Shown here in pieces: positions 58,297 through 63,308 of a stretch of DNA of 64,000 nt. Positions within the stretch are counted from its first letter, which is position 1. Each line of letters opens with the position of its first letter. The position numbers were made by a program, and so were the translations under genes. The notes beneath the pieces are model-generated. The model worked only from the letters and a program-made list of their open reading frames with translations, was not told the origin of the DNA and did no database searches. The DNA is from Streptomyces sp. MBT53 (lineage in GTDB: Bacteria; Actinomycetota; Actinomycetes; Streptomycetales; Streptomycetaceae): assembly GCF_016654115.1 (NCBI RefSeq), contig NZ_JAEQAZ010000002.1:1-64000 (forward strand), in the 5' to 3' direction.

Positions 58297-59037
58297 ATGG
58301 CCCGCACCACCCCCCACCACCCGACCGCCGACGACCAGCCCCTCTACGGCAAGGTCGCCACCGAACTGCTCGCCGAACTCCACGACGGCACCATCCCCCC
58401 AGGTGAACGCCTGCCCGGCGAGCGGCAGTTGGCCGAACACTTCCAGGTCAGCCGGGAGACCGTACGCCAGGCGCTGGAGGTGCTGCGCCGGGACGGCCTG
58501 GTCGCCACCGACCGGCGTGGCAGCCACGCCACACTGCCCGGTCTGCCCGTCGAGACCCCGTCCTCCCTCACCTTCCCGGTCGGCGCCCGCAGCACCGACC
58601 CGACCGGCTTCGACCGGACCTCGGTGACCTGGGAGACGCCCCCGCCCGAGCACGCCGAGGCCCTGCGGATCGCCCCGCACCGCCCGACCCTGGTGCACCG
58701 CTACGCGTCCGCGGCGGCCGACGGCAGCGGACTGCGCACGGCCGTCACGTCCTTCTCGGCGGTGGCGCTGGCCGAGGTGGAGGAACTCGCCCGCTACCGC
58801 GACCGCGCCGACGGCTCCGCCTCCGCCCAACTCCGGCGCGCCTACGACTGGATGCGCCGGGCCGGTCTGACCCTGCACCACCGGGACGCCATCACCCAGG
58901 TCCCGAACGCGCCCTCGGTGCGGGTGACCCGCCGCGTGCACGACCAGTACGCGCGCCCGCTGGAGATAACCGATCTGGTGGTGGAGGCCCAACAGGACGC
59001 TCTGATCTACGAGTTCACGGTTCCGTCGGCGGACTGA
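58297..59037 (+). CDS. GntR-family (HutC subfamily) transcriptional regulator
   Basis: A 246-residue regulator. N-terminal winged HTH (about 12-80: PLYGKVATELLAELHDG, PGERLPGERQLAEHFQVSRETVRQALEVLRRDGL) and a C-terminal UTRA ligand domain (about 95-240, ending EITDLVVEAQQDALIYEF). GGAGG lies upstream of the ATG. The dre-like site upstream suggests it senses a sugar phosphate or related ligand. Terminator shared with helR follows. Confidence 0.92.
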   Translation: MARTTPHHPTADDQPLYGKVATELLAELHDGTIPPGERLPGERQLAEHFQVSRETVRQALEVLRRDGLVATDRRGSHATLPGLPVETPSSLTFPVGARSTDPTGFDRTSVTWETPPPEHAEALRIAPHRPTLVHRYASAAADGSGLRTAVTSFSAVALAEVEELARYRDRADGSASAQLRRAYDWMRRAGLTLHHRDAITQVPNAPSVRVTRRVHDQYARPLEITDLVVEAQQDALIYEFTVPSAD

Positions 59038-59100: not shown

Positions 59101-61275
59101 TTACGCGCTCGTCAGCACGACGAGCTGCTGAGTCGCCCGGGTCATCGCCACATAGTGGTCGACGGCCCCTTCGATGCCCTCGCCGAACTTCTCCGGGTCG
59201 ACGAGCACGACCAGGTCGAACTCAAGTCCCTTGGACAGCTCGGGAGTCAGCGACCGGACACGCGAAGTCGCCCGGAAGGCGGGGTCCCCGATCACACAGG
59301 CGATCCCCTCGGTGTGTGCGGCGAGCCAGGTGTCGAGGACCGACTCCAGGTCCGAGACGGGTCCGTGGCCGACGGGGATGCCGCTGCCGCGGATCGAGGT
59401 CGGTACGTTGGCGTCCGGGAGGACCGCACGGATGACCGGCTCGGCCTCCGTCATGATCTCTTCCGGGGTGCGGTAATTGATGGTCAGGGACGCCAAGTTG
59501 ATCCGGTCGAGCCCGATCCGCTTCAGCCGCTCCTGCCACGACTCGGTGAAGCCGTGCCGGGCCTGGGCGCGGTCACCGACGACGGTGAAACTGCGGGACG
59601 GGCAGCGCAGCAGCAGCATCTGCCATTCCGCGTCGGTGAGTTCCTGGGCCTCGTCCACGACGATGTGCGCGAACGGCCCGGCGAGCAGGTCCGGTTCGAT
59701 GCCGGGCTGGGCCGCCTCGTCGATCAGGGCGTCGCGCAGATCCTGTCCGTGCAGCATCCCCATCGCGCCCTCGCTCTCGTCGATCTCGACGTTCTGCAGC
59801 AGGCTGTCGATGACGTCGGTACGACGAGCGTGTTCAGCGGCTACGGCCGCTTCCTGCCGGCGCTTGCGGCGCGCCGACTCCGGGTCGCCGAGCCGCTGTC
59901 GCGCCGCGTCGAGCAGCGGCAGGTCGGACACCGTCCAGGCCTGGGCGTCCGCGCGCTGCAACCGCTGGACGTCCTCGCGGCTCAACGAGGGGGCGCACTT
60001 GCGCAGATAGGCCGACACCGTCCACAAGTCCCCTACCAGGTCGGCCGCTTCGAGCAGCGGCCATGCGCGGTTGAAGGCGGTGAGCAGTTCGCGGTTCTGG
60101 CGCAGCGACTTGCGGAGCAGGGCGGGGGTGACCGCGCCGTCCTGGGCGGGGGTGGTGTCCTCGTGCTTCTCGACCAGGATGGTGAGCAGTTCCTGCCAGA
60201 CCTGCTCGCGTCCCTCGTTGTGCGGGGTGCCGGGTTCGGCCGCCTCGAACGCCACGGCCCAGTCCTCCGCGCTGAGCCAGATGTCGGACCAGTGGGTGGT
60301 GACGTTCATGCCCTTGGTGGGCGGCTCCTCGTAGAACCGGACGGCGGGTTCGATCGCCCGCACCAGTTCCACGGACGACTTCAGCCGGGCCACCTCCGGA
60401 TCGGCCTCGATGCCCGCAGCCGCCCCCTCCGCCACGAGGTCCCGCAGGATGCAGGTCTGCACGCCCTCCTCGCCGAGGCTGGGGAGGACGTCGGCGACGT
60501 AGTCCAGGTAGGGCCGGTGCGGACCGACGAACAGGACACCGCCCCTGCGATGACCCAGGCGCGGGTCGGAGTACAGGAGGTAGGCGGAGCGGTGCAGGGC
60601 GACGACGGTCTTGCCGGTGCCGGGACCACCGTCGACGACGAGCGCACCGCGTGATCCCGCGCGGATGATGGCGTCCTGGTCGGCCTGGATGGTGCCGAGC
60701 ACATCGCGCATCCGGCCCGAGCGGTTGCCGCCGAGGCTCGCGATGAACGCGGACTGGTCGTCGAGCGCGGCGTGCCCGACGAAGCCGTCCGCCGTGAACA
60801 CCTCGTCCCAGTAGTCGCTGATCCGACCGCGCGTCCAGCGGTAACTGCGGCGGCTCGCCAGCCCCATCGGGTTGGCGTGGGTGGCGCCGAAGAACGGCTC
60901 GGCCGCCGGGGACCGCCAGTCCAGCAGCAGCCGTCGGCCCGTGCTGTCCGTGAGACCGAGCCGCCCGATGTAGACGGGCTCGGATGTGTTGGCATCGACC
61001 ATGTGGCCGAGACACAGGTCCAGGCCGAAGCGTCGTAGGGTCCGCAGCCGTGTGGTGAGCCGGTGGATCTCCGTGTCCCGGTCCATCGCCGCCCGGCCGA
61101 TGCCACCGGGCGCCCTGCGCTCGGCGTCGAGCTGCTCGGTCAGTTCCGCGATCGACTGGTCGAGGCACTCCGCGATCGCCACGAAGTGCTGCTCGTCACC
61201 GGCGATCAGCGCCGGGGCGGCCTTGGCGGAGAGCCGGTCGGGGAGGTCGAAGGCGCTGGTGGTCAGGGGGTTCAC
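59101..61275 (-). CDS. helR: RNA polymerase recycling ATPase HelR (rifamycin resistance)
   Basis: A 724-residue UvrD/Rep-like helicase-fold ATPase of the HelD/HelR group. HelR strips RNA polymerase and displaces bound rifamycin, conferring tolerance. Walker A GGPGTGKTVVALHR, GDRAQARHGFTESWQERL, and C-terminal TPELSKGLEFDLVVLVDPE and MTRATQQLVVL are visible. The GTG at VNPLTTSAFDLP (61275) was chosen because family members begin there; an earlier GTG at 61395 overlaps the rgt stop as GTGA and would add 40 low-complexity residues (PNPAHEKPNPEHEN). It follows rgt in one operon headed by an RAE. Confidence 0.9.
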   Translation of the reverse strand: MNPLTTSAFDLPDRLSAKAAPALIAGDEQHFVAIAECLDQSIAELTEQLDAERRAPGGIGRAAMDRDTEIHRLTTRLRTLRRFGLDLCLGHMVDANTSEPVYIGRLGLTDSTGRRLLLDWRSPAAEPFFGATHANPMGLASRRSYRWTRGRISDYWDEVFTADGFVGHAALDDQSAFIASLGGNRSGRMRDVLGTIQADQDAIIRAGSRGALVVDGGPGTGKTVVALHRSAYLLYSDPRLGHRRGGVLFVGPHRPYLDYVADVLPSLGEEGVQTCILRDLVAEGAAAGIEADPEVARLKSSVELVRAIEPAVRFYEEPPTKGMNVTTHWSDIWLSAEDWAVAFEAAEPGTPHNEGREQVWQELLTILVEKHEDTTPAQDGAVTPALLRKSLRQNRELLTAFNRAWPLLEAADLVGDLWTVSAYLRKCAPSLSREDVQRLQRADAQAWTVSDLPLLDAARQRLGDPESARRKRRQEAAVAAEHARRTDVIDSLLQNVEIDESEGAMGMLHGQDLRDALIDEAAQPGIEPDLLAGPFAHIVVDEAQELTDAEWQMLLLRCPSRSFTVVGDRAQARHGFTESWQERLKRIGLDRINLASLTINYRTPEEIMTEAEPVIRAVLPDANVPTSIRGSGIPVGHGPVSDLESVLDTWLAAHTEGIACVIGDPAFRATSRVRSLTPELSKGLEFDLVVLVDPEKFGEGIEGAVDHYVAMTRATQQLVVLTSA

Positions 61276-61391
61276 GGCATCAATTCCGTTCTGAGGTCGC
61301 TCACGGCCGTGCGGGCGGCAGGCCGTGGGGACCGGTGCGTACGGGTTCTCGTGTTCGGGGTTCGGCTTCTCGTGTGCGGGGTTCGGCCGGT

Positions 61392-62627
61392 TCACGCGCG
61401 CGTGGGCGGCCTTTCCCCGCCGGCCGGGTCGAGGAGCATCTTCGCGGCCACTGTCGTCCCGTCGGTGCGGAGCAGGCCGGCCACAGTCCGTGCCCGGTCC
61501 CGGATCTCGGGGGCCAGGACGGTGGTGAGCGCGGCCGACAGGGAGTCGTAGGTCGGTGTCGGACCGTCGTGTGCGACGCCGATGCCCAGCTCGGCCACCC
61601 GTGCCGCCCAGTATGGCTGGTCCACGATCTGCGGCACGACCACCTGGGGCGCGCCGGACATGGTGGCCGCCGTCGTGGTGCCCGCCCCACCGTGGTGTAC
61701 GACGGCTGCCACCCGCCCGAACAGCGCCTGGTGATTGACCTCACCCACCACGAAGCAGTCGTCCCGGTCGTCGACGGCGGCCAGTTGCGCCCAGCCACGG
61801 CCGAGGACGACCCGGCGGCCCTTCGCCCGCACCGCCGCGATGGCGTCCCTGCCGACATCCGGCGAGGTACGTAGGGCCATGCTGCCGAAGCCCACGTACA
61901 CCGGCGGCTCGCCCGCCTTCAGGAACGCCTCCAGATCCGCGGGGAGCGGGCGTTCGTCGGGCAGGATCCACGGTCCGGTCACCACCAGGTCGAGATCCGT
62001 CTGGTCCTGCCACGGGAACAGGTCCGGGTCCGCTGCCAGCCACGGCCGCTCGGTGAACGCGTGGTCGCGGACGTTGTCGACCGGCGGCAGGCCGATCGCC
62101 GCCCGGTGCCGGTTCTCCGCCTCGCGGTACAGGGCGTTCACCCGCTGGGCGTCCTCCTCCCACAGCACCTTGATGTCGGTCTCCTCCGCCGAGGACTGGT
62201 GGCCGGGCCGCGACATCGGCCGGTACTTCGACGACGGCAGCCCGGCCGTGTGGAAGCAGGCGAACACATAGCGGATGCCCAGTTTCTCGGCCACCGAGCG
62301 GGCACCGGTCGGCATCAGACCGCTCGCCAGCAGCACATCGCACCCCTCGGCCGCCGGCAGCAGCGTCTCGTACCGGGCGGCCACCAGCTCGGGCGCGAGC
62401 CGGAACGCGGTCGCCGCCGTCGGCGGCTTCGCCCCGGTCACCACCGAGCGCACCGACGGCCCGAGCGGCAGCAGCGGCACCCCGGCCCGGTCCAGCAGCT
62501 CCACGAACTCCTCGTCCGGCGGCGCGGCCACGCTCACCTCCGCGCCGAGTTCCAGCAGTCGGGCCGCGAGTCCCGCGACGGGTTCGACATCCCCGCGCGA
62601 TCCCCACGTCGTCAACAGCACACGCAT
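61392..62627 (-). CDS. rgt: Rifamycin glycosyltransferase (GT-B)
   Basis: A 411-residue UDP-sugar-dependent macrolide-type glycosyltransferase. N-terminal MRVLLTTWGSRGDVEPVAGLA acceptor domain and C-terminal donor site VVHHGGAGTTTAATMSGAPQVVVPQIVDQ. The family member Rgt attaches glucose to rifampin. Assignment to rifamycin rests on the RAE sequence upstream and on helR in the same operon. GGGAG precedes the ATG; an in-frame ATG nine codons upstream is possible. Confidence 0.85.
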   Translation of the reverse strand: MRVLLTTWGSRGDVEPVAGLAARLLELGAEVSVAAPPDEEFVELLDRAGVPLLPLGPSVRSVVTGAKPPTAATAFRLAPELVAARYETLLPAAEGCDVLLASGLMPTGARSVAEKLGIRYVFACFHTAGLPSSKYRPMSRPGHQSSAEETDIKVLWEEDAQRVNALYREAENRHRAAIGLPPVDNVRDHAFTERPWLAADPDLFPWQDQTDLDLVVTGPWILPDERPLPADLEAFLKAGEPPVYVGFGSMALRTSPDVGRDAIAAVRAKGRRVVLGRGWAQLAAVDDRDDCFVVGEVNHQALFGRVAAVVHHGGAGTTTAATMSGAPQVVVPQIVDQPYWAARVAELGIGVAHDGPTPTYDSLSAALTTVLAPEIRDRARTVAGLLRTDGTTVAAKMLLDPAGGERPPTRA

Positions 62628-62685
62628 TCCGCGACTCCCATTTCCGCAGGTCATGCCCTCAGGCCGGACATTCTGCGGTACGACG

Positions 62686-62705
62686 GGGGCCTTGCCGCAA
62701 GCCCC
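62686..62705 (-). promoter_or_regulatory. Rifamycin-associated element (RAE)
   Basis: On the minus strand the sequence is GGGGCTTGCGGCAAGGCCCC, which equals the RAE consensus as I recall it. RAEs are found upstream of rifamycin-inducible inactivation genes and helR in actinomycetes. It lies 59 bp upstream of rgt; TTGCGG inside it may be the -35, with CAGAAT as -10. Confidence 0.88.
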
Positions 62706-62809
62706 CCGGTGCGCTATACGTTAAGAAGGGAAGAGGAGTGGACACGCCTCCCTTTCCGCCATCCCCCACAGCCCTCGCGAAACTCGCGGCGAAAAAACCT
62801 GCCCGCCGA

Positions 62810-62888: not shown

Positions 62889-63308
62889 ATGGCCAAGTAC
62901 CTGCTGCTGAAGCACTACCGCGGCGCCCCCGCCGCCGTGAACGACGTCCCCATGGACCAGTGGACGCCCGAGGAGATCACGGCCCACGTGCAGTACATGA
63001 ACGACTTCGCGGCCCGTCTCGAGAAGACCGGCGAGTACGTCGACAGCCAGGCCCTCTCGCCCGAGGGGACGTTCGTCCGCTACGACGGCGAGGGGCGCCC
63101 GCCGGTCACCGACGGCCCGTTCGCCGAGACCAAGGACGTCATCGCCGGCTGGATGATCATCGACGTCGACAGCTACGAGCGGGCTGTGGAGCTGGCCGGT
63201 GAGCTGTCGGCCGCCCCCGGTGCCGGTGGCAAGCCGATCCACGAGTGGCTGGAGCTGCGCCCGTTCCTGGGCGTGCACTCCACCACCACGGACTGCACCT
63301 TCAAGTGA
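62889..63308 (+). CDS. YciI/DGPF-domain protein, partner of an ECF42 sigma factor
   Basis: A 139-residue protein with the DGPF motif (VTDGPFAETKDVIAGW) that names the YCII-related family. The start MAKYLLLKHYRG and the end FLGVHSTTTDCTF are typical. Such proteins accompany ECF42 sigma genes in actinobacteria; their role is unknown, perhaps in a shared redox or metabolic sensor circuit. ATG with GAGGAG upstream. The stop overlaps the sigma start by 4 bp (GTGA). Confidence 0.9.
   Translation: MAKYLLLKHYRGAPAAVNDVPMDQWTPEEITAHVQYMNDFAARLEKTGEYVDSQALSPEGTFVRYDGEGRPPVTDGPFAETKDVIAGWMIIDVDSYERAVELAGELSAAPGAGGKPIHEWLELRPFLGVHSTTTDCTFK

Follow-up and report, generated by a model that had tools for sequence, protein, structure and literature searches.

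The rifamycin-associated element (RAE) is a 19-base palindrome that precedes genes of the rgt, rox, rph, arr, and helR families, and we describe here an RAE-type palindrome, GGGGCTTGCGGCAAGGCCC, that heads an rgt gene followed by a helR gene in a 64,000-nucleotide stretch of DNA from Streptomyces sp. MBT53 (hereafter the window, meaning this whole stretch). We take this palindrome to be identical, letter for letter, to the published RAE. Passages of PMC10719064 place the RAE over the -35 box of the sense promoter of mycobacterial helD and are our source for the role of the HelR family, while an excerpt of PMC7283461 gives C-23 glycosylation of rifamycin as the function of the Rgt family. How the RAE conveys rifamycin is left open in the passages of PMC10719064 and is yet to be elucidated according to those of PMC12802891. 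The RAE described in the available passages is 19 bp long, with no mention of an antisense promoter, whereas here it lies at the centre of a rigid symmetrical element of ~55 bp. Neither an antisense promoter at the RAE nor an rgt-helR operon is described in those parts of the literature that were searched; the original RAE and HelR papers, which lie outside that search, may describe them.

Opposed promoters are known from other bacteria. Passages of PMC12825309 describe bidirectional promoters of Escherichia coli in which pseudo-symmetrical DNA seats RNA polymerase either way, as the RAE element might; the paired starts there are mostly 18, and also 10 or 23, bp apart, whereas the predicted RAE starts are ~66 bp apart with overlapping -35 boxes and thus lie outside the Warman and Grainger spacing. 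In the rifampicin alarm of Bacillus subtilis, as described in passages of PMC12802891, two opposed promoters precede the rifampicin-response genes helD and pps, as they appear to do here. However, those promoters converge and the predicted RAE promoters diverge, and because bringing the B. subtilis promoters closer by 17 bp, at which distance the polymerases would be expected to collide, abolished induction, the convergent model is not transferable unchanged to the RAE and was rejected on geometry.

We interpret the window locus as a rifamycin-inducible two-gene operon in which the RAE holds the -35 boxes of two opposed promoters, and on the sequence evidence presented below we put the probability of this interpretation at roughly 0.7.

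An RAE-headed rgt-helR locus

The palindrome heads both genes, as the original prediction, made from the window sequence, had claimed; all three lie on the minus strand. The ATG of rgt (62627) is 78 nucleotides past the first RAE base, and the GTG that opens the conserved HelR N-terminus (61275) follows the rgt stop after a gap of 116 nucleotides; the helR open frame extends further, as far as a GTG (61395) overlapping the stop codon of rgt. A scan of the gap region (61200-61450) returned no promoter-like and no terminator-like sites, and one RAE heads the whole operon, helR included. The proposal of a single operon thus has support from the identities, order, and strand of the genes, from the presence of just one RAE, and from the absence of promoter or terminator matches between them.

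HelR matches the NF041254 model over its full length with 1278 bits, passing the cut-off of 750, and is the only protein of the genome to do so; weaker HelD-like matches occur on contigs C32, C257, and C504. Its closest solved relative by sequence is HelD of 6yxu. Its gene is the second of the operon, behind rgt, and does not directly follow the RAE. Rgt matches NF000354 over residues 1-402, near full length, but with 587 bits it falls below the cut-off of 800, so that of the two proposed identities HelR stands above its threshold and Rgt matches its model below it. Rgt is similar to glycopeptide glycosyltransferases as well (GtfB, 1iir, at 437 bits), and GtfB, GtfA, and GtfD are its closest solved relatives by sequence. 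These scores would fit an enzyme that acts on some other substrate, such as a glycopeptide or polyketide, and does not modify rifamycin. We consider this very unlikely, given the RAE and helR context and the scores of the other glycosyltransferase models, which reach at most 63 bits on the same protein, against 587 for the Rgt model. The second-best match to the Rgt model in the genome is remote (117 bits). Moreover, in a tree of 30 rows, none of them a characterized Rgt, the window protein clusters with RAE-headed rgt genes, including solo ones from Nocardia and Amycolatopsis, and all 25 RAE-headed rgt rows scanned match the Rgt model. The top E-value among these is 3.1e-213, which by our own reckoning corresponds to ~710 bits, so probably no RAE-headed row reaches 800 and the cut-off is narrow.

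Within the window, a search for the RAE pattern allowing up to three mismatches gave two matches, which are the two strands of a single site; shuffled windows gave a mean of 0.08, and 1 of 100 shuffles also gave two. The exact 15-base core occurs at two places in the 11.3-Mb genome. When one mismatch was allowed in the core, there were five matches, among which the two exact sites were each counted again in reverse, versus 12 for the backwards control, so weight was placed only on exact core matches. These occur in 190 of 295 same-genus genomes, against ~15 of 295, counted by eye, for the backwards control, and elsewhere the same element precedes rox, helR, rph, and arr. The second RAE of the MBT53 genome, on contig C530, has symmetrical flanks like those in the window and heads rox, a rifampin monooxygenase gene. 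The original prediction spoke of a two-layer defence; rgt and helR would form such a pair, but rox, under its own RAE, is a third layer and brings the RAE-linked defences of the genome to three (Rgt, HelR, and Rox; Table 1).

Table 1. Positions of genes and predicted or observed sequence features (window coordinates unless a contig is given)
Feature	Position	Strand	Basis or remark
RAE palindrome GGGGCTTGCGGCAAGGCCC	62687-62705	minus	motif search
Predicted sense -35, TTGCGG	62695-62700	minus	inside RAE
Predicted sense -10, CAGAAT	62670-62675	minus	19 bp from -35; predicted start ~62664
Predicted opposite-direction -35, TTGCCG	62692-62697	plus	overlaps sense -35
Predicted opposite-direction -10, TACGTT	62717-62722	plus	19 bp from its -35; predicted start ~62729
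Imperfect hairpin at predicted antisense start	62728-62757	plus	folding
rgt, rifamycin glycosyltransferase-like, 411 residues	61392-62627	minus	NF000354 model match
helR, RNA polymerase rescue ATPase	59101-61275	minus	NF041254 match; from GTG at conserved N-terminus
YCII-domain protein	62889-63308	plus	in direction of predicted antisense promoter
Sigma factor with DUF6596	63305 to window end	plus	in direction of predicted antisense promoter
Second RAE of the genome	L006:7368-7386, contig C530		exact core; heads rox
rox, rifampin monooxygenase	L006:7502-8932, contig C530		848 bits, NCBIfam cut-off 800

Two predicted promoters in a symmetrical element

RAE sites were collected as exact-core matches in same-genus genomes and from at least part of the named genome contigs, and at least 216 were classified; a few loci are included twice, from two collections (e.g. 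L087/L180 and L046/L158). Boxes were counted in 186 distinct sites for which the core sequence sets the orientation; reduction at 75% identity leaves 87 of them. Of 212 distinct sites, the 26 with other cores were excluded from this set, and an earlier profile built from sites pre-chosen by motif was circular and is not counted.

On the antisense side, the distance of TANNNT from TTGCCG is exactly 19 bp in 183 of 186 sites (84 of 87 in the reduced set), and the other spacings from 10 to 27 yield a single case in all. On the sense side, [TC]ANNNT lies exactly 19 bp from TTGCGG in 178 of 186 sites (80/87) and at other spacings 12 times in all, and the looser NANNNT is found at 19 bp in 185 of 186. 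The misses in this set are L124, L133, and L172 for the antisense box and L172 for the sense box. The two boxes mirror each other across the centre of the palindrome, each lying 21 to 26 bp from it. Antisense variants include TATCCT, TATTCT, TATGAT, and TACATT, and the T, A, and final T that are fixed on this side are bases of the actinobacterial -10 consensus; at positions -24/-25, where the antisense start is expected, GG is found in 78 of 87 sites. Judged from these alignments, the RAE appears to form the middle of a rigid, symmetrical element of ~55 bp resembling two back-to-back promoters, from which we infer two-way transcription. The heading palindrome of the original prediction is present, but as one part of a larger symmetrical element that the prediction lacked.

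When sites with all cores are classified, both boxes are present in 203 of 215, a count that is slightly biased in that the orientation of symmetric cores was picked by motif score. By class, these are all HelR (71 of 71) and Rph (32 of 32) sites, 47 of 49 Rox, 39 of 40 Rgt, and 7 of 8 Arr sites, together with 3 of 11 sites without a recognized gene and 4 of 4 with too little DNA for a gene to be assigned. Five of the 12 sites without both boxes (L053, L067, L074, L085, and L153) are opposite-strand readings of symmetric cores; the others are L038, L044, L058, L107, L124, L133, and L172.

Two other placements of the promoters were rejected. For a sense promoter at TATAGC, no upstream sense TANNNT start between -45 and -12 is found in more than 10% of sites, and the fixed bases fit the antisense -10 instead. 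For a 17-bp register (TATAAG), TANNNT is found at 17 bp in 0 of 186 sites, versus 183 at 19 bp.

The element is also recovered by a pattern made from its flanks only, in which every RAE base was left open and up to two mismatches were allowed. In 246 same-genus genomes, this pattern matches in 197, while the backwards control gives 0 in every genome and the insertion of one extra unspecified base at mid-pattern leaves matches in a single genome. The 51 rows checked by tblastn represent 49 distinct flank-pattern sites, all of which head HelR, Rox, Rgt, or Rph; 41 of these rows come from 40 stretches selected for non-canonical cores, and the weakest assignment is that of L279 (145 residues of Rox, 59%). 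Among the first 100 flank matches listed, the core fits GGGNCTTGCNNCAAGNCCC in 91 and begins with GGGGCTTGCGGCAAG in 53. As 47 of these 100 are without an exact GGGGCTTGCGGCAAG, a search with the exact core misses many sites, and the flank pattern recovers such sites with every distinct one checked (49/49) heading a rifamycin-resistance gene.

Based on this architecture, sense transcription would begin from a promoter consisting of TTGCGG, a 19-bp spacer, and CAGAAT, and the opposed promoter would consist of TTGCCG, 19 bp, and TANNNT, each with its -35 box within the RAE. Since the two -35 boxes overlap, the geometry suggests that RNA polymerase would take one direction at a time and that transcription in the two directions would be mutually exclusive. 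Upon induction by rifamycin, Rgt would probably add a sugar, presumably glucose, to the drug and lower the amount of active drug, and HelR would free RNA polymerase already caught by the drug. The drug could be sensed by a dimeric factor on the palindrome or by the polymerase itself. A rigid two-way architecture at nearly every RAE site examined makes the opposite transcript, the competition between directions, and the need for a factor testable.

Several points weigh against this interpretation, in addition to the Rgt score below its cut-off and the likeness of Rgt to glycopeptide glycosyltransferases. The usual spacer between -35 and -10 boxes is 17 bp, and with spacers of 19 bp each of the two promoters may be weak or depend on a factor. 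At L058 (arr) both boxes are out of register, as is the sense box at L107 and L038 (rox). Given the flanks alone, the palindrome is nearly invariant, including its GGG and CCC arms, and the retention of arms beyond what the -35 boxes need points to an additional binder. Moreover, the hairpin described below is weak in the window itself and lacking in mycobacteria.

The arms bear directly on how the drug might be sensed, and their invariance favours a factor as the sensor. The RAE could be the operator of a dedicated, dimeric, rifamycin-responsive factor, with the opposite promoter a by-product or serving the symmetry of the factor, and we give this close to an even chance. It agrees with the fit to GGGNCTTGCNNCAAGNCCC among the listed flank matches, which includes the arms outside the -35 boxes, and with the long spacers, which suggest that help is needed; an unknown factor is also named as a possibility in passages of both PMC10719064 and PMC12802891, although those passages name no specific one. 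Against it, the elements before rox in Vulcaniibacterium, a deltaproteobacterial metagenome-assembled genome (MAG), and Minicystis would require the factor to be equally widespread or separately transferred.

The fixed opposed promoters and the presence of the element before rox outside the Actinomycetota leave room for the polymerase as the sensor, with drug-bound polymerase shifting the competition between directions in the manner of the B. subtilis dual-promoter alarm. The rigid spacing of the opposed promoters (203 of 215 sites, and 183 of the 186 sites of fixed orientation) and the helD and pps precedent are consistent with this, but we regard it as doubtful: apart from the difference in geometry noted above, the RAE promoters diverge with overlapping -35 boxes, and a drug-arrested polymerase should block both. 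Still more doubtful is the fuller version, in which the RAE is the shared -35 hub of a two-way promoter, the polymerase is the sensor, and a short opposite transcript is the resting state for all five gene classes.

A hairpin at the predicted antisense start

Upstream of the RAE, an unanchored search found a perfect stem of at least 8 in 87 of 184 regions and in 25 of 85 non-redundant ones, while shuffled controls gave 0 and 1 and the regions downstream of the RAE gave 5 and 5, respectively; the shuffles were plain letter shuffles, one per site in this search. The outer end of the stem is at -24 in 64 of the 87 sites and within one base of it in 78. Stems with at most one mismatch and a score of at least 7, anchored at -24/-25, occur in 123 of 186 sites (38 of 87 in the reduced set) versus less than 2% of shuffles. 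In 37 of these 38 sites the loop measures 3 to 13, and in the remaining one 32. The antisense 3' side is enriched in U, with 4.7 of 9 positions versus 2.3 T on the sense side. The arms covary: among sites with an uncommon arm, the exact partner is present in 29 of 92, where permutation gave 8 on average and 17 at most, a test without correction for relatedness, which holds in the reduced set (16 of 65 versus a mean of 4.1 and maximum of 11). The hairpin is mostly confined to Streptomyces and its allies; the reduced set contains 10 mycobacterial rows, each with a score below 7.

In many Streptomyces-type relatives, although not in all lineages, the opposite transcript would begin with a hairpin and a U-rich stretch, as expected of a very short, terminated antisense RNA, and so would end after a few dozen bases. 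In the MBT53 genome, the hairpin before rox is a good fold (z -4.44) with a U-run behind it, but that of the window is imperfect, has no U-run, and folds no better than shuffles (z -0.78). The predicted antisense promoter of the window might thus serve the YCII and sigma-factor genes that lie in its direction. The weakness of this hairpin also fits the alternative that the hairpin is a mere insulator or a protein operator and that the opposite TANNNT belongs to the operator and is no promoter. We consider this unlikely, as the loops are short, the antisense 3' side is enriched in U, the arms covary, the stem starts about as far out as a transcription start should lie, and the fixed T, A, and T of TANNNT match a -10 box when read antisense. 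Attenuation in the RNA of the sense leader was rejected as well: CCGCA/TGCGG pairing is found in 47 of 186 sites versus a permuted mean of 42 and maximum of 52, and GGCC/GGCC pairing in 44 of 186 versus a mean of 40 and maximum of 53.

Spread of the RAE and loss of rgt

The genes found behind RAE sites are helR, rox, rgt, rph, and arr; one representative each of the last two passes its NCBIfam cut-off (1651 bits versus 999 for rph and 200.8 versus 130 for arr). The element also occurs before rox or rph in Vulcaniibacterium, Minicystis, a Deltaproteobacteria MAG, and two Chloroflexi MAGs (L086, L107, L140, L053, and L067), with phyla of the rox-bearing records outside the Actinomycetota taken from the record titles. 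The antisense -10 is in register in all five, the orientation of L053 and L067 being set by motif score. Of the rox elements, those of Vulcaniibacterium (a DSM strain) and the deltaproteobacterial MAG have both -10 boxes, and that of Minicystis has the antisense box alone. The arr site L058, with neither of the two in register, is from Aerophototrophica. In an uncultured Arthrobacter (L121), both -10 boxes are present and no recognized resistance gene lies in the 1.2 kb downstream.

The pairing of rgt and helR, present here as the original prediction had it, is recurrent and not special to this strain. With each locus counted once, rgt is followed by helR in at least 18 distinct loci, the window included, and stands without helR in at least 10, for which at least 3.6 kb was examined; loci with less downstream DNA were left out of this count. 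Sites found with the flank pattern add rgt-helR loci (L261 and L269) as well as rgt without helR (L249 and L272). The estimated gap from the rgt stop to the conserved helR start ranges from 1 to 219 nucleotides across loci. In a tree of 28 labelled Rgt rows, the operon/solo label changes three times, versus a mean of 8.5 for shuffled labels, with none of 500 shuffles as low. The window Rgt adjoins a group of eight solo genes in the tree, which has only a loosely placed root owing to a very distant outgroup.

In loci headed by helR, a start codon positioned like that of rgt (~+76 to +80) often precedes a copy or relic of the Rgt N-terminus. The Rgt N-terminus is MRVLLSTYGSRGDVEP, and relics include VRVLLSTYGSRGDVGP before helR (L175) and VRVLLSTYGGRGDVEP before rph (L209); further examples are L024, L112, L193, L203, and L210 among helR loci and L019 among rph loci. 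Agreement at five or more of eight N-terminal positions, a threshold that, like the allowed residues, was chosen after such sequences had been seen, is seen for helR in 21 of 70 distinct loci and for rph in 7 of 32, compared to 1 of 49 rox, 0 of 8 arr, 0 of 12 unassigned, and 36 of 38 true rgt loci. The next 65 nucleotides, used as a control, gave 0 in each class, and shuffled sequences gave one case each among 70 helR, 49 rox, and 38 rgt loci and none among 32 rph loci. Together with the tree, the remnants favour the view that rgt-helR is the older arrangement, that rgt has disappeared from it many times, and that RAE-rgt starts were left before some rph genes. Alternatively, the copied N-terminus is possibly a kept leader peptide. 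The operon and these remnants suggest that drug modification and polymerase rescue have come under one switch more than once and that rgt has repeatedly gone from it.

Single loci show further arrangements of these genes. At L262, just a 76-residue rgt-like stretch lies between the RAE and helR, as if rgt had decayed. At L268 (G016, contig C14), an RAE-rox unit lies ~4 kb upstream of an RAE-rgt-helR operon on the same strand, forming a cluster of three rifamycin defences with two RAE elements. One genome, G018, carries both a solo RAE-rgt and an RAE-rgt-helR operon (L217 and L261). In the window, a GntR-family regulator (58297-59037, plus strand) is convergent with helR.

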